Of a stretch of 64,000 nucleotides of DNA, positions 7,709 through 59,666 are shown in pieces. How positions within the stretch are numbered: position 1 is the stretch's first letter; each line of letters starts with the position of its first letter. The position numbers were made by a program, and so were the translations under genes. A model generated the notes under the pieces. It was not told where the DNA came from, ran no database searches, and worked only from the letters and a program-made list of their open reading frames with translations. The DNA is from a virus: IMG/VR virus record IMGVR_UViG_3300009314_000709, positions 1-64,000 of that record. One strand, given 5' to 3'.

Positions 7709-8458
7709 TTAGTGATATATCTGGATTGGTTGCTTGTCGCTGATGAAAATGTTAGGCCCGAGGCGGGCTTCAAACCACACGTTGTAGAGACCGCAATCGA
7801 AGTCCGAGTCTTCCGTCGTGTCGAGCAGGTAGTAACCAGTGCACCCGTCACGTTCGGTGATCTGTTCTCGATCCACGATCAAACGCAGGTCTTCTTCCTC
7901 CGGCAGACAATCTCCACACTTCTGTTCGATGGAGAGGTAGAGCAAGCCCGCCACGGCCATATTCTCGTAGTATCGTTGTTTGTCCGTTCCCCTGGGCACA
8001 TCCGGCCGCACGGTAACTTCCAGGTACTTCTTGCTCCCGATTACAACTTGATTTGGTCGGAACTCGAAACTGAAGTCATGGACGATAGGCGCACTGTCGG
8101 TGAACCAGATTGTAGGCAGGATGCGGAAGGACATTGGGGATTGGCAAACGGACGACCCTTCCTCGAAGACCACATACCAGTCGTCTTGGAAATTCCCTTG
8201 TGTGAAGAGCGGCACATCTAATGGCAGATCGATGTGGTATTGACCTACATCATCCTTGACGATATCAGCGGCTTCAACGGTTTGTACCAAGCTGCGCCCC
8301 AGCGGATTCTCGCTAGTTGCTTCTACAACATACAGCTTGTAGATTTCTACTTTTTGAAGCTCATCCGGGTCAGCGAAATCACTTCCATTGAAAGCAAAGA
8401 ATTTCAAGCGAACAGTATCGCCAACCAAGGGGTTCTGGTTACGTTCTTTGAGGGCCAT
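7709..8458 (-). CDS. putative virion structural protein
   Basis: 249 residues, beta-rich in appearance, no family recognised. AGGACG precedes the ATG by about 6 nt. It sits directly downstream of the gp26-like hub gene and its small partner, so a baseplate or tail role is likely from position only. Four cysteines between about residues 180 and 225 (KCGDC, DGC, DCG) may bind metal. Confidence 0.6.
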   Translation of the reverse strand: MALKERNQNPLVGDTVRLKFFAFNGSDFADPDELQKVEIYKLYVVEATSENPLGRSLVQTVEAADIVKDDVGQYHIDLPLDVPLFTQGNFQDDWYVVFEEGSSVCQSPMSFRILPTIWFTDSAPIVHDFSFEFRPNQVVIGSKKYLEVTVRPDVPRGTDKQRYYENMAVAGLLYLSIEQKCGDCLPEEEDLRLIVDREQITERDGCTGYYLLDTTEDSDFDCGLYNVWFEARLGPNIFISDKQPIQIYH

Positions 8459-8465
8459 ATTCGTC

Positions 8466-8636
8466 CTAGTTATTCTTATTCAGTTCCTTATGTTCCTTCT
8501 CACGCTGCTCTACGAACTGGTCGATAAAAAACCGACGTTCGATTGGACTGAGCGTTAGCTTTATGACATTGATCGGTTGTCTCAAGTGGTAGGCGATGAA
8601 GAACATTTCTTCCCACAACCACTTGTTGTATGTCAT
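8466..8636 (-). CDS. small protein translationally coupled to baseplate hub gene
   Basis: 56 residues (starts MTYNKWLWEEMFFIAYH). Its ATG overlaps the stop of the gp26-like gene as ATGA, and its stop lies 8 nt before the next ATG, so it fits the operon exactly. It has an aromatic amphipathic N-terminus and a very charged C-terminus (QREKEHKELNKNN). Because it is short and overlaps another frame, it is easily missed. It may be a tail-assembly chaperone-like partner, but this is a guess from position. Confidence 0.65.
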   Translation of the reverse strand: MTYNKWLWEEMFFIAYHLRQPINVIKLTLSPIERRFFIDQFVEQREKEHKELNKNN

Positions 8637-9898
8637 AGCGGCTCGATCTCTGTCCTTTCCTTGGGGAAGAAAAAATTGGCTTCGTACGGAAGTTCAACAG
8701 GGAACTCCGCCCCACAAGCTGGACAAGGCACAATCAATTCTGTATCTACGCCAAATGGTGGATTATTTAGCGTGTTGCGAATGTAGTTAATGTCCGCAAC
8801 CGGTAGTCGCTCCATCAATGACTGAATGGCATGTCGGTTGTTCACCTTAGCGTTGTCATTGCCAATCTCATCAATAAGGATGGACGCCTTGTACAAGAAG
8901 GAGTCATCTGTAGCGTTAGAGAACTTCGTTTTTCGGTCCCGGTACGCTGAGATTTCAGTTTCGTGAGCGCCTGTCATCAGATGATACCTGAACGTAAACC
9001 TTGTCTTGGGCAACGTCTTGGCCAGGGTATCTTCGTGGAAGTTATCTGGGCAGTAATCTACCGGCAAGTTCAGATCAATATCATGGTCGAATGTGTGGCC
9101 ACATTCTGGACACTTGACGGTCACTTCATAGACGTTGCCGTACGAAATACCACGCAAGTAAATCAACAGGTACGTCCGATCCACGCTCAGTAGCTTTTCT
9201 GGGTTGATATCTTTCTCCATCAAGCAATTGCGGAAAATCATTTCAATACCACGTCCTTGCCGCATCAACCGAGCGGTTGAAAGAATCGTCTCTTCCTGGC
9301 CTGTCATGGGGCGAACATGGACTTCGCCGCTCATCGGTTGATCTTCGTCATGGTAAAAACGGCCTCTCGATGGAAGTGGTACCCTTTCGTAATTCTGGGT
9401 ATTCAACGCAGTGAGCAAGGCGTTAAGATGCGGATCATTCGTCATCAACTCACCAGGCTGCAATGGTTTCATGTTGCTCTGCTGATGCGGAGGCAACTGT
9501 TGCGGTGTTTGAAATGGGGCATTGGAATTAGGCTGTGATTGCGCCTGCGGCCCACCTTGCTCTTCTACTTGGGAGGCGTTTACTTCAGATAGGCGTTGTT
9601 GCAGCATTTGCTGCATACCAGGTGGCATTTGGCCCGTCACCGAAATACCATCCATTGGCCGAGGCTCCGCCTGGGTCGCTACAGGATCATCTGGCACGCT
9701 TACACCAGCTTGACGCTGCGTTTCCAAAACATCATTCAGCGATGCGGTAGGTTGTTGGGCTGCTAACTTTGCTTTATCTACGGACTCGGGAGCCGGTGCA
9801 GCTTCCGATGCCTCTGCTTCACCCGTGATCTCTGATGGATCAATCTTTACTTTCTTCTTCGATTCTTGACGGAAGGTCTTGTCTTTCTCGTCTGCCAT
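8633..9898 (-). CDS. baseplate hub protein, T4 gp26-like
   Basis: 421 residues. The region from about 195 carries the T4 baseplate family pattern: LPSRGRFY, then RPMTGQEE, a helical section, and two CxxC pairs (VKCPECGHTF and VPCPACGAEF) that should form a zinc site. T4 gp26 is a hub component needed to build the baseplate centre. The first 190 residues are a low-complexity extension rich in Gln, Ala and Pro, absent from the 208-residue T4 protein. GAGGAG lies before the start. It is the first gene of a minus-strand run (gp26, small partner, virion protein). Confidence 0.82.
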   Translation of the reverse strand: MADEKDKTFRQESKKKVKIDPSEITGEAEASEAAPAPESVDKAKLAAQQPTASLNDVLETQRQAGVSVPDDPVATQAEPRPMDGISVTGQMPPGMQQMLQQRLSEVNASQVEEQGGPQAQSQPNSNAPFQTPQQLPPHQQSNMKPLQPGELMTNDPHLNALLTALNTQNYERVPLPSRGRFYHDEDQPMSGEVHVRPMTGQEETILSTARLMRQGRGIEMIFRNCLMEKDINPEKLLSVDRTYLLIYLRGISYGNVYEVTVKCPECGHTFDHDIDLNLPVDYCPDNFHEDTLAKTLPKTRFTFRYHLMTGAHETEISAYRDRKTKFSNATDDSFLYKASILIDEIGNDNAKVNNRHAIQSLMERLPVADINYIRNTLNNPPFGVDTELIVPCPACGAEFPVELPYEANFFFPKERTEIEPL

Positions 9899-53387: not shown

Positions 53388-53831
53388 ATGCATTGTCCGT
53401 TAACCGGCAAACCATGTCTGATGCCAAAAGAAGTGTTTATCACAGAAGTGAAAGATAATGATGTGCGACACTTATTCATGTGTCGACAATGTGGCGACAA
53501 GTATATCGAAGACCTAAACGATGCCGATGTTGTAACGAAGTCTTTAGAGGTCGTTTCGTCGGACGGCGACATTTCACATAACGAACATGTTCTCGACGAT
53601 GAACATATTGGCGACTTGCCAGAGAACCTACAGGAACTCCCGACACCTCAACCAATCACCGCCCCTGTCTCAACGCTTCAACAAATCAAAGCTGTTGAAG
53701 CTAAAATGCAAGCCGCTATCGACAAAGAAGATTATGAATCAGCCGCTGCCCTACGTGATATCCTTATTGAACTTCGACAACGAGATAATCCGCTAAACCT
53801 AGAGGACAACGAAGATCAAGAAGAAATCTGA
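53388..53831 (+). CDS. McsA-like protein (zinc finger and UVR motif)
   Basis: 147 residues. Four cysteines at the N-terminus (CPLTGKPC and CRQCG) form a probable zinc finger, and the C-terminus has a UVR motif (AVEAKMQAAIDKEDYESAAALRDIL). This pairing is that of McsA, the partner of protein arginine kinase McsB and Clp protease adaptor. A phage copy may bind Clp or the nucleotide-excision repair proteins. The ATG follows the previous stop directly. Confidence 0.68.
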   Translation: MHCPLTGKPCLMPKEVFITEVKDNDVRHLFMCRQCGDKYIEDLNDADVVTKSLEVVSSDGDISHNEHVLDDEHIGDLPENLQELPTPQPITAPVSTLQQIKAVEAKMQAAIDKEDYESAAALRDILIELRQRDNPLNLEDNEDQEEI

Positions 53832-54775
53832 CGTGAGGGTAAGCCTTTGAGTAGTTTGTTCAAAGTGATAATGCCAAATCCCTGGTAGAATGGATCACCA
53901 GCATATTCCTCACCTACAACGTTTATCGTGTGCTCTCGGAAAAACTGACGATAGGAGTCGGCATTGTTGATTTGTATGTCCAGGCCAACGTTCCGTTTGT
54001 AAGAGAGTAGCAAAGCGGCAAGCCCACACACGAACGGCTGAGCCATTGAAGAGCCCGACAAGATAGCCCACCAATTGTCGGGAACTGTACTCAAGATATC
54101 AACACCAGGGGCCATGAAATCCAAGTTCTTTCCTGTGTTGGTGAAGTCCGCTCGTCGCAAGTTCTTATCAATCGCCCCAATAGCAATTGTCTCTGGGTAG
54201 TTTGCCGGATAAAGCAAGTGCTCTGACTTGCCTATGTTCCCGGCTGCTACAAATACAGGGATGTTGGCTTTGTCCGCAGCCTTTAATGCCCACCTCAATG
54301 ATCGCATAGGCTTGAGAGTCCCCAGCGACATTGAGATGAAATCGACTTTCTGCTTAATAGCCCACCGAATAGCCTTTACAACATCTTCGATTTCTCCGTC
54401 TCCATAACCATCAAGCACTTTCACTGGACGTACTTTTGCTTTGGGTGCTACCCCAACCGTCCCTATGTCATTTTGCTGTGCGCAAAGAATGCCCGTTACA
54501 TGAGTACCATGTTCTCCGTCATCATCTGGTAGTACGCCTGGCCTGACAAAGTTATATCCGTCCAATAGATTGTCTTGCAAATCAGGATGGTCAAGGTCAC
54601 AGCCGGTGTCCAGTACGGCGATGGTGATACCCTCTCCCTGAGTAACGGCCCATGCTTCGGGTATGTTAAAAGTACTGACTCCCCAATCCGTCCTTTCTCT
54701 CAGTTGTTGCATGGAGATAATGTCTCGGCGCTTGTAGGGCAGTAAACTACAATGTTGTTGTGTTTCAATTGGCAT
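53816..54775 (-). CDS. subtilisin-family serine protease
   Basis: 319 residues from ATG 54775 (GGAGG upstream). The triad is complete: AVLDTGCDLDHPD, GEHGTHVTG and SGSSMAQPF, with the oxyanion Asn in AAGN. No signal peptide or long propeptide is seen, so it may act in the cytoplasm or virion. It overlaps the McsA-like gene by 16 nt. Confidence 0.92.
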   Translation of the reverse strand: MPIETQQHCSLLPYKRRDIISMQQLRERTDWGVSTFNIPEAWAVTQGEGITIAVLDTGCDLDHPDLQDNLLDGYNFVRPGVLPDDDGEHGTHVTGILCAQQNDIGTVGVAPKAKVRPVKVLDGYGDGEIEDVVKAIRWAIKQKVDFISMSLGTLKPMRSLRWALKAADKANIPVFVAAGNIGKSEHLLYPANYPETIAIGAIDKNLRRADFTNTGKNLDFMAPGVDILSTVPDNWWAILSGSSMAQPFVCGLAALLLSYKRNVGLDIQINNADSYRQFFREHTINVVGEEYAGDPFYQGFGIITLNKLLKGLPSRQISS

Positions 54776-54811
54776 CGTGCCTCCATAGTATGTAGCCACT
54801 CTGCCAACCAA

Positions 54812-54846
54812 AAACCCGCCCTTCCGAAATTCGGAAGGGCGGGTTT
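54812..54846 (-). terminator. hairpin terminator
   Basis: A 35-nt nearly perfect palindrome (17-bp arms around one base) after the peptidase gene at 54879. Followed on the minus strand by TTTTGG. Confidence 0.85.
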
Positions 54847-54878
54847 ACGCCAAAAGGAGAGATTACAGGTAACTCGCC

Positions 54879-55934
54879 TCAATACGGGAATCTAGCTCCG
54901 CCGTGATCGTATCTGGGATAGTATTTCTCATATCCTGTTATGATCTTACGTGCAGCGTAGCTAGCGTGACAACATTTGTATGCAAGTTCGCAAGCGTATT
55001 TGCTGATTTGTTCCATTCCCTTGTAGTTAATCTTGTCGGCCGTATCAGACCTACGATGGTAGTCACGGTGTGTCCCGGTATGTATGAACACTGCGGGTAC
55101 TCCCTTACGCAGGAAAGGAGTATGGTCAGAGCCACCGGCTCCCTTTTGCGTGATCCTTGATGCGAATGTGTACTTGCCGTCCAATTCGTCGACAAATCTA
55201 TACAAATCCACATCAAGATTGGTGCCAGTGACGAGGTAGGGCGCAATATTCTGTCCCAATCTACCGACCATATCTGCGTTAATCATAGCAACGTGTTTGT
55301 CGATGTCGGGATCGTCTTTCGGGAATGTTGGATTCTTTGTGTAGTAACTACTTCCAATGAGTCCGCTTTCTTCAGCGGTGTACCATTGGAATACAATGGT
55401 ACGTGGCGGTGCTTCCATCTTGGAAAAGGCTTTCGCCAAAGCCATTACCAACACTGAGCCAGAACCGTTATCATCCGCTCCTAAGCGACCATTGCCAAGA
55501 TGGTCGAGATGCGCTCCAACAACAACAATTTCGTCTTTGCGGGTCGGATCACTGCCTTCAATGTAAGCGCACAAGTTCTGATCTCGCCGAGGAACGGTTT
55601 GCCTCTCGGTTTTCAAACCCCATTCTTTACAATGACTCTCTACGTATTCAAGAGCCTTCTTGAAGCCCTCTGTATTGGGTTCTCGTCCGTCGAGTTCCGG
55701 GGAGGCGAGATAGTAGAGCCACTCTTTCTGCTCTTCCGCCGTAATCGCATCCAACGCTTGTTCAAGTGTCAAATATTCCGGCTCGGGCGGTTGTACTGGA
55801 GGTACTGGCCCTTGCGGTGGCTGTACAACAGGTGGCTCAGTGGACGGATTGAGAACATACTTATCCGCCGCCAAAGTCAATAACAACGTTAAACCGAACG
55901 CTGCCAAAGCATAGACTACATTCCTAACATTCAT
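54879..55934 (-). CDS. M28-family metallopeptidase, membrane anchored
   Basis: 351 residues from ATG 55934 (GAGGGCAAGAA upstream). N-terminal membrane helix (about 5-22), then a Pro/Gln-rich linker and an M28 aminopeptidase domain with zinc ligands in VVVGAHLDHLG, LGADDNGSGS, TAEESGLIGS, INADMVG and GSDHTPF. Should face the periplasm and cleave peptides. Together with other hydrolases it may open the host envelope. Confidence 0.9.
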   Translation of the reverse strand: MNVRNVVYALAAFGLTLLLTLAADKYVLNPSTEPPVVQPPQGPVPPVQPPEPEYLTLEQALDAITAEEQKEWLYYLASPELDGREPNTEGFKKALEYVESHCKEWGLKTERQTVPRRDQNLCAYIEGSDPTRKDEIVVVGAHLDHLGNGRLGADDNGSGSVLVMALAKAFSKMEAPPRTIVFQWYTAEESGLIGSSYYTKNPTFPKDDPDIDKHVAMINADMVGRLGQNIAPYLVTGTNLDVDLYRFVDELDGKYTFASRITQKGAGGSDHTPFLRKGVPAVFIHTGTHRDYHRRSDTADKINYKGMEQISKYACELAYKCCHASYAARKIITGYEKYYPRYDHGGARFPY

Positions 55935-55992
55935 TTCTTGCCCTCTTGTTCTAACGAACAGATGTCTACATAGGAGAGTAAGGAAGAAGGAA

Positions 55993-56619
55993 ATGCGATT
56001 CAAATTCTGGCTTCTCGAAAACGATGAGTATGACCGCCTGTTGGCCCGTTATGAGCAGGAATGGGAACCACGGCTTTTGCAGAACCCGGAGGTTCGGCAA
56101 GAACTAATGTCTGACGGCTTAGCAAAAACCGCCACCGTCCGAAGAGTCTTAGGTATATCAGAAGGCGAATCAAATTTCGCTGCAAGAGAATTCAACAATC
56201 GCCACCGAGACCCCGAAGGGGAACGACAACGCCAGCAGAGGTGGCAAGATCAGATGGCTGCCGAAGCTCAGGATGATAACTATTATCACGTAACGTTGAG
56301 AACAAGGTGGCGAAAGATTCGCCGTCAAGGGCTCCAACCTGGTGCGGAACCAGTTTTCTCAAATTACACAGGGCACTCTGCGGGAAGAATCTTCCTCACA
56401 GAGAAAGGTGGGATTAACTTCTGGAAAGAGAGAGTTGCCGCTCACGAAGAACATAATGTCGAACATCCCCAGGGTGTTGTCGTCCTTCGTATCCCAAAAA
56501 CCGCCGTAGCCAATGTAGAACTCGATGAACTTGGCACCACAGACGCCAAACACAACTCATATTACACAACAGAGTCCATCGATCCTTCTCACATCACAGT
56601 AGCCGAACAGCAGCTTTAA
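55993..56619 (+). CDS. ADP-ribosyltransferase-like protein with capsid-targeting-like N-terminus
   Basis: 208 residues. MRFKFWLLENDEYD is a clear copy of the shared motif. The C-terminal half (about 95-205) has the strand order of ADP-ribosyltransferase or KptA-like folds: YYHVTLRTRWRKIRRQGLQPG (His motif), NYTGHSAGRIFLTEKGGINFW, VVLRIPK, then HNSYYTTESIDPSHI with a final Glu. T4 packages its Alt ADP-ribosyltransferase by a similar peptide. The fold assignment is by pattern only. Confidence 0.55.
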   Translation: MRFKFWLLENDEYDRLLARYEQEWEPRLLQNPEVRQELMSDGLAKTATVRRVLGISEGESNFAAREFNNRHRDPEGERQRQQRWQDQMAAEAQDDNYYHVTLRTRWRKIRRQGLQPGAEPVFSNYTGHSAGRIFLTEKGGINFWKERVAAHEEHNVEHPQGVVVLRIPKTAVANVELDELGTTDAKHNSYYTTESIDPSHITVAEQQL

Positions 56620-56702
56620 TCTCCTCCAAAGTTTTTTCATTTTTTGCGCAAGTTTTGTTGCATCGTTGTCGATTATTCATATGGAGAACTTCAAGGAGGT
56701 AC

Positions 56703-57986
56703 ATGCTAACGGCGAATAGAATACACGAGTTCCTGGACAAATACACCATCGTTGAAGGTTTGCCAATCATCTTAGACCCTGAGCGATCCAATGGAGTTTG
56801 GGTCGTGGATATGATTACTGGCAAGAAATACCTTGATTGCACTAGTTTGTTTGGTACTGCGCCAGTCGGTTTCAATCATCACATCATGTTCCGGGAATCA
56901 CAAGAGTGCTTTGTGGGCGTGCCGCATCTCAAGATACCACACGGAGAAGTCTATACGTGTTGGTATGCAGATTTCATTGAAGCCTTCCTCAAAAAAGCCC
57001 TGCCGGATTACTTCAAGTACGTCGTTTGCTGCCCGAGCACGGACGAGGCCATAGACGCCAGCCTTAAAATTGCTTTCGACTGGAAGGCTAAGAAGCTAGG
57101 GATGGGGGATGGCTTTGCCCAATCATTCGATGTGATCCATTTCGCAGAGTCCTACCACGGTTCCTCTGTCTATGCTCTAAGTGCTAGTGATACCACTGTT
57201 CGGAGCAATCACTGCTACCCTCGTTTCAATTGGACGATGGTTCCCAATCCTAAAGTCAGGTTTCCCAGCACATCTCAAGTTGAAACCAACGAAACACATG
57301 CCCTGATTGCTATGAAAAAGGCGATTCACAAAGGGAACGTTGCCGCAATTCTCATGGAGCCGCTGCAAGACAAAGGGGGGAACAATCTATTTAGAGAAGG
57401 GTTCTTGAAGCAAGTACGAGACCTAGCAAGCGAATCCAACACACTACTAATCTTCAATGAATGTAATGTGGGATTCGGGCCATCTGGCAAATGGTGGTGC
57501 CACCAAACATTTGATATACGACCTGACTTAATGGTTTTCGGCGGCCGGACACAAGTCGCAGGTGTGGTGGCGACAGAAAAACTCGACGAAGTAAAGAGAC
57601 ATTGTTTCAATCACGAGCGCAATCGCCTTGAAACAAAGTGGGGGGGCGACTTGGCGGATATGGTGAGATGCGAAATCTACATGCAAATCATCGAAAAAGA
57701 AGACCTGCTCAAGCAGGCGAAAAAGATTGGTGAATACATGCTGGCGAAGCTAAGGGAACTCGAAGCAGTGTCAGCTAAGATTAGCAACACACGAGGTATC
57801 GGTACGTTGACTGCCTTCGATCTACCCAATTCTATGTCGAGAAACTTGGTCCTCTCATACCTGCAAAAACACATGTTAATTAGGGGCTGCGGTTTGCAGT
57901 CCATTTGCTTCCGACCGCCACTAATTTTTGGCAAGGAAGAAGCTGATCTTACTATGGATTATATCAGAAAGGCATTGATACTATGA
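56703..57986 (+). CDS. class III aminotransferase homologue, active site lost
   Basis: 427 residues from ATG 56703 (AAGGAGG upstream). It aligns along its length with L-lysine 6-aminotransferases: IILDPERSNGVWVVDMITGKKYLD, AFDWKAKKLG, FAESYHGSSVYALS, AAILMEPLQDKGGNN, and GGDLADMVRCEIYMQIIE. Yet the PLP aspartate site reads FNECNVG instead of FDEVQTG, and the lysine motif FGKKTQV reads FGGRTQV. No Schiff-base lysine remains there. It is likely a pseudoenzyme kept for binding or structure. Confidence 0.82.
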   Translation: MLTANRIHEFLDKYTIVEGLPIILDPERSNGVWVVDMITGKKYLDCTSLFGTAPVGFNHHIMFRESQECFVGVPHLKIPHGEVYTCWYADFIEAFLKKALPDYFKYVVCCPSTDEAIDASLKIAFDWKAKKLGMGDGFAQSFDVIHFAESYHGSSVYALSASDTTVRSNHCYPRFNWTMVPNPKVRFPSTSQVETNETHALIAMKKAIHKGNVAAILMEPLQDKGGNNLFREGFLKQVRDLASESNTLLIFNECNVGFGPSGKWWCHQTFDIRPDLMVFGGRTQVAGVVATEKLDEVKRHCFNHERNRLETKWGGDLADMVRCEIYMQIIEKEDLLKQAKKIGEYMLAKLRELEAVSAKISNTRGIGTLTAFDLPNSMSRNLVLSYLQKHMLIRGCGLQSICFRPPLIFGKEEADLTMDYIRKALIL

Positions 57987-58552
57987 GTTATTCCGAATGG
58001 GCAAAGAAGTTTGAGGAAGGGAAGAAGCGACCTAAACCCCACAAAACCGAGGAAGAAAAAAAGCAACTCAAACCTCACAAAATAGACAAAATAGTTTGGG
58101 AACCGATTCCCCAATCGGCAAGTGACAGGTTCGATAGAAAGTGGCCCAGCTTAGTGAATCCGTACATACCGGAAGTAGATAGACCAAGTTCTCAAGAGAA
58201 AGTTCATTTGCAGCAGAAAGCAGAGCAAGCCAAAAAACAGGCAGAATTACTTGAAGATGCTGTAATGGTTTACCGACTTTCTAGGGAAGGTCAAAATCCT
58301 CCCACAGATGTTGACCAGACCGCAGAGATGTATGACATTAGCAGGACAGACTCTGTTGAGTTGTTGCATCTCATCAGAAACATCATGGGAGATGAAGAAT
58401 ATCGTCGAGTGATCGCTAAGGTGTTCGATACAGAATCACCTCTGAAAACCGTTGAAATCCCACCGATCTATGACATACCCGATGATGTTAAAAATGCGTA
58501 TCGGGAACGAGGAATAAATCTAAGAAAGAGGTTTTCCGACGAAACTCCCTAG
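57983..58552 (+). CDS. hypothetical protein, possible capsid-targeting N-terminus
   Basis: 189 residues. MSYSEWAKKFEEG resembles the shared motif. Then come Lys/Pro repeats (KRPKPHKTEEEKKQLKPHK), a coiled-coil stretch (LQQKAEQAKKQAELLEDAV) and a helical end. ATGA overlap with the aminotransferase homologue, and 65-nt convergent overlap with the protease gene. Confidence 0.6.
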   Translation: MSYSEWAKKFEEGKKRPKPHKTEEEKKQLKPHKIDKIVWEPIPQSASDRFDRKWPSLVNPYIPEVDRPSSQEKVHLQQKAEQAKKQAELLEDAVMVYRLSREGQNPPTDVDQTAEMYDISRTDSVELLHLIRNIMGDEEYRRVIAKVFDTESPLKTVEIPPIYDIPDDVKNAYRERGINLRKRFSDETP

Positions 58553-59306
58553 CTTTTAACATCAACCTCGGCAACTTCGGCAAGGTCGTCTCTTTTTTGT
58601 AAATGGCGGCCTTGCTTTCACGTTCAGCCCATTTCTTCAAAACCGTTATGCGAACACCTTGAGAGTTGTTGAAAGTGGGAAATATCACGCCATTGATCTG
58701 GGCCGATGCAATCTTTTGCTTGATGGCAATCAGCTTCTTGTTGTGAAACACAGGTCCGCCAGAATCTCCAGGTATGGCCAACAAACCAGCACGTATAGAT
58801 ATCTCGTCAATGCCAGTGATCCGGCCATAATCCAACCTAGGAACTTCTCGACTGCCGCAACCTACTCCAATAATCTCATTGCCGAAGTAGAGTTTCTCAT
58901 CCATACCCAAGTCAGCAACAGGCATCTGCTTTTTCGATAGGAACATCATCAACGCCATGTCCCTATAGGGATGTTTAGCAATTATTCTCGCTGGATACCT
59001 TTTGCATTTTGACCTATCAATGGCAGACCAATCTTTGTAAGCAATCACGACTGCGTACGGTTCTGTAAAACGCTGAACAACGTGCTTGCATGTTAGGACG
59101 ACATTTATCCAGTCATCGCCGTCTTTTTCGCTGCGAATAATGGTACCGCTCCCAAAACCGCACCGATCAATTAGCTGTACGACCGGCCGCACACATTTTA
59201 GTTCAAGTTCTTTGTCAGGTACCCCAGCAAGCGACAAACTACTGTTAAGGGGGAGCGCAACAAATGCGAAAACAGCAGTCAAGAAAATGGTTGATGTATT
59301 ACTCAT
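58488..59306 (-). CDS. secreted trypsin-like serine protease
   Basis: 272 residues. Signal peptide (about 1-27), then a chymotrypsin fold with LTCKHVV (His), YRDMALMMF (Asp) and IPGDSGGPVF (Ser). Should act in the periplasm or outside the cell. The C-terminal 40 residues are an extra basic segment. It overlaps the convergent gene by 65 nt. Confidence 0.85.
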   Translation of the reverse strand: MSNTSTIFLTAVFAFVALPLNSSLSLAGVPDKELELKCVRPVVQLIDRCGFGSGTIIRSEKDGDDWINVVLTCKHVVQRFTEPYAVVIAYKDWSAIDRSKCKRYPARIIAKHPYRDMALMMFLSKKQMPVADLGMDEKLYFGNEIIGVGCGSREVPRLDYGRITGIDEISIRAGLLAIPGDSGGPVFHNKKLIAIKQKIASAQINGVIFPTFNNSQGVRITVLKKWAERESKAAIYKKETTLPKLPRLMLKAREFRRKTSFLDLFLVPDTHF

Positions 59307-59420
59307 ATTTCTTATCTAGGGGCGTTAGCTTGTTTTCAGGGAGGGGCTTACTCTAATATCATGCCCCATAATGAAGAATTCGCCCCGCCCCAACCTCATA
59401 GAAGTTGGGGTGGTTTAGAC

Positions 59421-59666
59421 TTATTTCTCTGCTGAGATAAATGATTGCAGATTGATCGTTACTGTAACATCACCAGCTTTTTCATTGAGTATTGTTATAC
59501 AGACTTCCCGCTTCTCTGGATCGAAGCTGAGAATCTCCCAATCATCTTCGTCTAAGCCATCGAAGAACTCTTTCTGCTTGCTGCCTTCTGTCAAGTAAGC
59601 AATGAGTGTATTCTTTGAGAGACGTTGTGTGTACTGGCACGCCCTTCGGTTGAAACTAGTTACCAT
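59421..59666 (-). CDS. hypothetical protein
   Basis: 81 residues, soluble, acidic centre (EFFDGLDEDDWEILSFDPEKREV). Not recognised. GAGGATGAC precedes the ATG. A 7-bp hairpin (59388-59410) lies downstream. Confidence 0.55.
   Translation of the reverse strand: MVTSFNRRACQYTQRLSKNTLIAYLTEGSKQKEFFDGLDEDDWEILSFDPEKREVCITILNEKAGDVTVTINLQSFISAEK

Follow-up and report, generated by a model that had tools for sequence, protein, structure and literature searches.

We identified in the genome of a tailed phage a gene whose product is probably a pseudoenzyme derived from a phage lysine 6-aminotransferase (LAT), in a lineage in which the couple formed by LAT and glutamate dehydrogenase would have been dismantled and the fold retained for a non-catalytic, most likely protein-binding, job. 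The gene occupies positions 56703..57986 on the plus strand of the window, the 64,000-nucleotide stretch analyzed here (positions 1 to 64,000 of IMG/VR record IMGVR_UViG_3300009314_000709), and encodes 427 amino acids in an intact frame. As judged from alignments and a structural model, the fold has been kept and the chemistry lost, with the losses concentrated in the catalytic pocket.

Results

The window gene encodes a full-length LAT homologue

ORF 56703-57986 contains no internal stops. A Shine-Dalgarno-like AAGGAGG, read directly, lies 5' of its ATG (56693..56699, plus strand), and the ATG of a 189-aa ORF (57983..58552, plus strand) overlaps its stop codon in an ATGA (57983-57986). An earlier, sequence-only reading of this DNA had described the frame as intact and coupled to the next gene, and these features agree with it. 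The 189-aa ORF had no family match in Pfam or PHROG, and a scan for its relatives found none. An assembly or frame error was rejected, as such an error would not be expected to leave an open frame with around a dozen separately changed codons; a search for a second assembly of the LAT-like gene found none.

The match of the window protein to TIGR03251 (L-lysine 6-transaminase) extends from end to end and scores 355.1 bits. The equivalog cut-off of 520.8 was not reached, although this is a weak test, in that only one of the seven scanned phage LATs with an intact K300 (M. tuberculosis LAT numbering, used throughout) passes it; for the same reason, lysine is unproven as the substrate of the K300-intact phage LATs. 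Membership of the class III aminotransferases was clear from Pfam PF00202 (Aminotran_3), which spans residues 20-425 with 203.3 bits against a gathering threshold of 30.5, and the nearest solved structures are those of M. tuberculosis LAT. An AlphaFold model built from 29 sequences (mean pLDDT 89.5, pTM 0.91) superimposed on LAT 2cin with a Z of 55.3 and an rmsd of 1.5 Å over 423 residues, and with a TM of 0.95 to LAT, so the window protein is predicted to have the LAT fold. Together, the whole-length TIGR03251 match and the model bear out the end-to-end homology to LAT that had been proposed from sequence alone. Among the viral structures of BFVD, the top match was a Gordonia phage Pupper aminotransferase with a TM of 0.72 only.

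Fourteen of 16 active-site residues are replaced

According to excerpts of PMC9780415, the LAT active site consists of E243, R422, Q274, K300, R170 and F167 together with T330 and N328 of the other subunit, and the PLP pocket of G128, A129, F167, H168, E238, D271, V273, Q274 and K300, to which the other subunit adds S329 and T330; V63 lines the lysine pocket. The same excerpts describe a homodimer in which the partner supplies N328, S329 and T330 to each active site, with T330' touching the phosphate and K300, and E243 touching the substrate, and they assign the Schiff base to the first lysine of the FGKK motif alone (M. tuberculosis K300). Our alignment of the residue numbering likewise placed K300 at the first FGKK lysine.

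The window protein differs from M. tuberculosis LAT at 14 of the 16 listed residues, with only H168 and E238 matching. Positions 128, 129, 167, 168, 170, 238, 243 and 271 are occupied by T, D, Y, H, S, E, K and N, and positions 273, 274, 300, 328, 329, 330 and 422 by C, N, G, E, T, K and C, respectively, while position 63 is F, which is also the usual residue there among phage LATs. FGGRTQV (residues 279-285) stands for FGKKTQV, so that G281-R282 (57543..57548, plus strand) replace K300-K301 and the Schiff-base lysine is Gly281; FNECNVG (residues 251-257) stands for FDEVQTG, with Asn252 (AAT, 57456..57458, plus strand) in place of D271, the holder of the PLP ring nitrogen. Both of these losses had been noted in the sequence-only reading, and mapping onto LAT confirmed them; the extent given there was too small, since R170S, E243K, G128T, A129D, F167Y, V273C, Q274N, N328E, S329T, T330K and R422C must be added. 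A misalignment at the lysine was rejected, FG-GR-TQV being gap-free in every alignment looked at.

The phosphate and substrate sites have changed in the same manner. T113-D114-E115 (57039..57047, plus strand) align with G128-A129-L130 of the phosphate-binding turn, an alignment that is less certain than elsewhere because the window protein has one extra residue there in both pairwise and three-way comparisons, and K312 (AAG, 57636..57638, plus strand) stands at the position of T330, a residue that serves the active site of the partner subunit. By alignment, the substrate-carboxylate arginine R170 is Ser154 (57162..57164), R422 is Cys402 (57906..57908) and the switch glutamate E243 is Lys224 (57372..57374), all on the plus strand. 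Charged side chains now in the pocket are D114, E115, K224, E310 and K312; on this alignment the pocket appears to have been refilled with charge and not evenly eroded. With its catalytic residues lost and its fold and frame kept, the window protein has the properties of a pseudoenzyme.

Pocket losses exceed general divergence

To compare the pocket with the rest of the protein, the window protein was aligned with 38 phage LATs, 30 bacterial LATs (the best 30 of 150 matched genomes, from 296 searched) and M. tuberculosis LAT (n = 69), and columns with the same residue in at least 95% of the 69 LATs were considered conserved. The window protein has lost 12 of 14 conserved active-site columns, as compared with 18 of 73 outside the active site (Fisher p 2.7e-5), which, alongside the intact model fold, substantiates the earlier suggestion of a conserved fold with a dead active site. 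When only phage and M. tuberculosis LATs were used, the losses were 11 of 13 active-site columns vs 19 of 72 others (p 1.2e-4). An initial version of this test, with a provisional set of active-site residues (10/10 vs 20/75), was replaced by the one based on the residues listed in the PMC9780415 excerpts. In a leave-one-out comparison, the window protein was the worst, with 30 of 85 conserved columns lost, and the LAT of L004 came next with 13 of 94. Position 300 is Lys in all 38 other phage rows and all 30 bacterial rows, L093 (described below) being counted apart, and chance is thereby ruled out for the K300 loss. Locus L036 (cut) and locus L040 (frameshifted) were excluded from the leave-one-out and phage/M. 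tuberculosis counts; the tree and the 69-LAT alignment were made without these two and without the near-duplicates L026, L029, L037, L039 and L041.

The frame has been under selection for most of its history

The nearest relative of the window protein is the LAT of L005, with 41% identity. Between the two genes pS was 0.81, i.e., saturated, and pN 0.41, values that rest on this distant pair and from which selection after the loss is not directly measurable. Neutral evolution was simulated by random substitution from L005, with 200 frames per identity level. Stop-free frames numbered 93/200 at 95% identity, 35/200 at 90%, 9/200 at 80%, 1/200 at 70% and 0/200 at 60%. An open frame despite saturation indicates that the gene was selected for most of its history, although this does not date the loss of catalysis.

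Phage relatives include a second loss of K300

A profile scan of IMG/VR identified 39 LAT loci, and a WGG-DMVR DNA pattern a further 10 contigs. LAT homologues were thus present on 49 other IMG/VR contigs, all but one with Lys at 300, and an intact copy was also found in the 595-kb phage LR756511.1. Amongst 31 records searched with the profile, including that of the window, 30 hold a single LAT copy; in the L040 record, the LAT gene is in four frameshifted pieces. A single-protein scan with the window protein returned no relative, the LR756511.1 LAT as query returned L004 only, and a scan of genome contigs gave one distant class III match, L003. In L004 (7440-9185) and L035 (approximately 8001-9185), the LAT frame continues from upstream sequence in an intron- or fusion-like manner, and the upstream part in L004 looks, by eye, HNH homing endonuclease-like; neither these two loci nor the window had an Rfam match, be it to a group I intron or to another RNA.

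A search for PD-FG-(not Lys)-QV, a pattern blind to residues whose codon starts with A, yielded three loci. Only L077 among them is a LAT; L085 and L086 contain unrelated genes. The L077 contig (IMGVR_UViG_3300009154_000161; 32,644 bases), listed as L093 in our comparisons, encodes a LAT with FGDKVQV, i.e., K300D, together with E243Y and R422S in an open frame. This protein has a 14-residue gap after HGRS and has lost the N328 segment, by two in-frame deletions, and it retains the phosphate turn along with D271, Q274 and T330. Its identity is 75% to L006 and 74% to L007, both of which keep K300, and its pN and pS against L006 (0.147 and 0.80) are similar to those of the L006/L007 pair (0.173 and 0.77). 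Conserved columns lost by L093 numbered 4 of 14 in the active site vs 12 of 73 elsewhere; as this excess is not significant (p 0.23), L093 is perhaps an early relic. The K300-keeping L006 (E243D, N328R) and L007 (F167V) also show departures at active-site positions.

In a tree, L093 groups with L006 and L007, and the window protein forms an isolated branch of approximately 2 changes per site. A sister relationship of the window protein and L093 was not supported by this tree. The separate branches suggest that the two K300 losses are independent, although long branches are hard to place and the position of the very long window branch is unsure. The sequence-only reading had recommended a search for phage homologues with the same changes, and L093 shares the loss of K300; the K224 and K312 of the window protein occur in no other sequence of the set.

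The LAT-like gene lies in a contractile-tailed phage record lacking glutamate dehydrogenase

The window belongs to a 72,432-base virus record, an incomplete genome, whose genes for tail sheath, tail tube, sheath stabiliser, baseplate hub and head-tail adaptor identify a contractile-tailed phage. A scan with the tail-sheath protein found L046 (100%) and L047 and L048 (53%), all short contigs without LAT. The L046 sheath, on a short IMG/VR contig, is identical to that of the window over 649 residues, and by this measure L046 would belong to the phage of the window, or to a very close one, in another assembly.

Downstream of the LAT-like gene are a trypsin-like gene (PF13365; 58488..59306, minus strand), also near LAT in 14 of 40 other loci compared, a 114-base junction (59307..59420) where related loci hold a glutamate dehydrogenase gene, and a small conserved gene of cluster 16 (59421..59666, minus strand) that follows glutamate dehydrogenase in related loci. 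In all eight other loci holding both the trypsin-like and cluster-16 genes (L010, L012, L018, L020, L025, L033, L034 and L039; three highly similar pairs, hence approximately five independent cases), glutamate dehydrogenase lies between the two. L035 and L005, the latter being the nearest relative, likewise have it after the trypsin-like gene, although in L005 it is cut by the contig end. A glutamate dehydrogenase gene is absent from the window and from the 72-kb record. This absence alone means little, as 28 of 38 records are without the gene, many of them with intact LAT, and it could be ancestral. Two small genes, of clusters 2 and 6, found just 5' of LAT in 22 and 17 other loci, respectively, are missing before the window gene. 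A profile of the trypsin-like gene gave two loci, both on already known contigs.

Large phages commonly carry LAT, in many cases close to genes for glutamate dehydrogenase or for arginine dihydrolase and aldehyde dehydrogenase. Phage glutamate dehydrogenase adjoins LAT in L005, L010, L012, L018, L020, L025, L033, L034, L035 and L039, and in 16 loci (including L011, L013 and L029) LAT adjoins arginine dihydrolase/dimethylargininase-like and aldehyde dehydrogenase genes, an arrangement that looks like a cluster for amino-acid catabolism carried by viral contigs. A nucleotide-sugar dehydrogenase-like gene lies near LAT in 14 loci. In the window, three kinds of protease, i.e., a subtilase (S8), an M28 peptidase and the trypsin-like protein, are encoded close together at 53816-59306. 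The LAT-like gene is preceded by a 208-aa ORF (55993-56619) with no Pfam or PHROG match, which by eye may have an ADP-ribosyltransferase-like fold. Promoter and terminator scans of the window (6 found vs 4.6 expected, and 7 vs 3.4) were not used, and a tRNA scan of the window found none.

Discussion

LAT transfers the epsilon-amino group of lysine to 2-oxoglutarate, which glutamate dehydrogenase can regenerate from glutamate. In the scenario that we consider probable, the window protein would have arisen from the LAT that a group of large tailed phages carries in one copy. Judging from the residues replaced, PLP transamination would no longer be possible, and the lysine-deaminating couple of LAT and glutamate dehydrogenase would have been abandoned in the window lineage. 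The LAT fold would have had, or gained, a second and non-catalytic job, most likely as a dimer that binds another protein, and this job would now be the target of selection. Given the overlap of its start with the LAT-like stop, the product of ORF 57983-58552 is the first candidate for the partner. An active partner copy could lie elsewhere in the phage, since the genome is incomplete. More tentative is the broader proposal that, in large phages, the LAT fold has a job independent of catalysis, e.g., trapping or poisoning an aminotransferase of the host or serving as a scaffold for another phage protein, and that catalysis has been shed at least twice without loss of the fold.

Other readings of the gene were weighed against retention for a non-catalytic job. 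The sequence-only reading had named another lysine placed to bind PLP as the observation that would speak against it, and by alignment K224 and K312 do stand at active-site positions, exactly those of E243 and T330', next to the expected PLP site. PLP might then still be bound through K224, or through K312 from the partner, with changed chemistry or as a structural ligand, and the PLP pocket does retain H168 and E238. We consider this unlikely, however, because the phosphate turn carries Asp and Glu and both D271 and Q274 have become Asn; moreover, no other sequence of the set has equivalents of the two lysines. Likewise unlikely is a role as the inactive subunit of a heterodimer, in which the window protein would pair with an active LAT or other class III aminotransferase, whether encoded by phage or host, and tune or poison that enzyme via the shared interface. 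Such a role would fit the alteration of the partner-supplied residues N328, S329 and T330 (E310, T311 and K312 in the window protein), the occurrence of lysine-less fold-type-I subunits in heterodimers described in excerpts of PMC11016064, and the frequency of LAT-type genes in one sampled bacterial phylum (150/296 genomes); yet a second copy is absent from the 72-kb record of this incomplete genome, and 30 of the 31 records searched are single-copy.

Slow decay of a relic gene with no present function would account for K300 having been lost twice, as expected were LAT dispensable, for the missing gene of the partner enzyme, glutamate dehydrogenase, and for the frameshifted copy in L040. We regard it as improbable, given that 55 of 73 conserved columns outside the pocket are kept and that the gene, free of stops and frameshifts, has a ribosome site and overlaps the next gene. 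Highly improbable is the sugar- or amine-binding virion part suggested in the sequence-only reading. A gene of the tail-tube cluster does lie inside five other LAT loci (L005, L010, L018, L020 and L035), its L010 member being a PHROG tail tube protein, but the tail genes of the window are more than 30 kb from the LAT-like gene, none of its neighbours within approximately 3 kb matched a virion family, and the substrate-carboxylate arginines R170 and R422 are gone.

In the open-licence literature searched, we found no account of phage LATs or of dead phage LAT copies, in keeping with the earlier remark that phage pseudoenzymes of this class are not well known. A dead copy, a second and apparently independent loss and many intact relatives together provide a natural experiment on phage use of LAT beyond transamination. 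If the LAT fold does have a catalysis-independent job, it would define a class of phage-borne dead PLP enzymes absent from the open-licence papers searched.

Inactive relatives of PLP enzymes have been described mostly in eukaryotes, serving there as partners or decoys. Excerpts of PMC11016064 list AZIN1, AZIN2, SPTLC1 and PDXDC1 as mammalian proteins with a PLP fold and no catalytic lysine. The window protein resembles SPTLC1, AZIN1/2 and the like in having a PLP-enzyme fold without the catalytic lysine (PMC11016064, in the same excerpts), whereas those proteins are eukaryotic and belong to other families, with SPTLC1 partnering an active subunit (SPTLC2/3). With LAT itself (EC 2.6.1.36; M. 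tuberculosis Rv3290c, 2cin) it shares whole-length homology at 32% identity and the predicted fold, and it departs from that enzyme at most active-site residues, including the Schiff-base lysine. Ancestry and neighbours, i.e., the trypsin-like gene and cluster 16, are common to the window gene and the phage LATs of LR756511.1 and the 49 IMG/VR contigs, but the latter keep K300 in all cases except L093, and glutamate dehydrogenase is present in 10 of 38 of their records and not in that of the window. A further parallel is L093/L077, which has likewise lost K300, R422 and E243 in an open frame; its loss, however, is recent and on another branch, and D271, Q274, T330 and the phosphate turn, all replaced in the window protein, are there retained.
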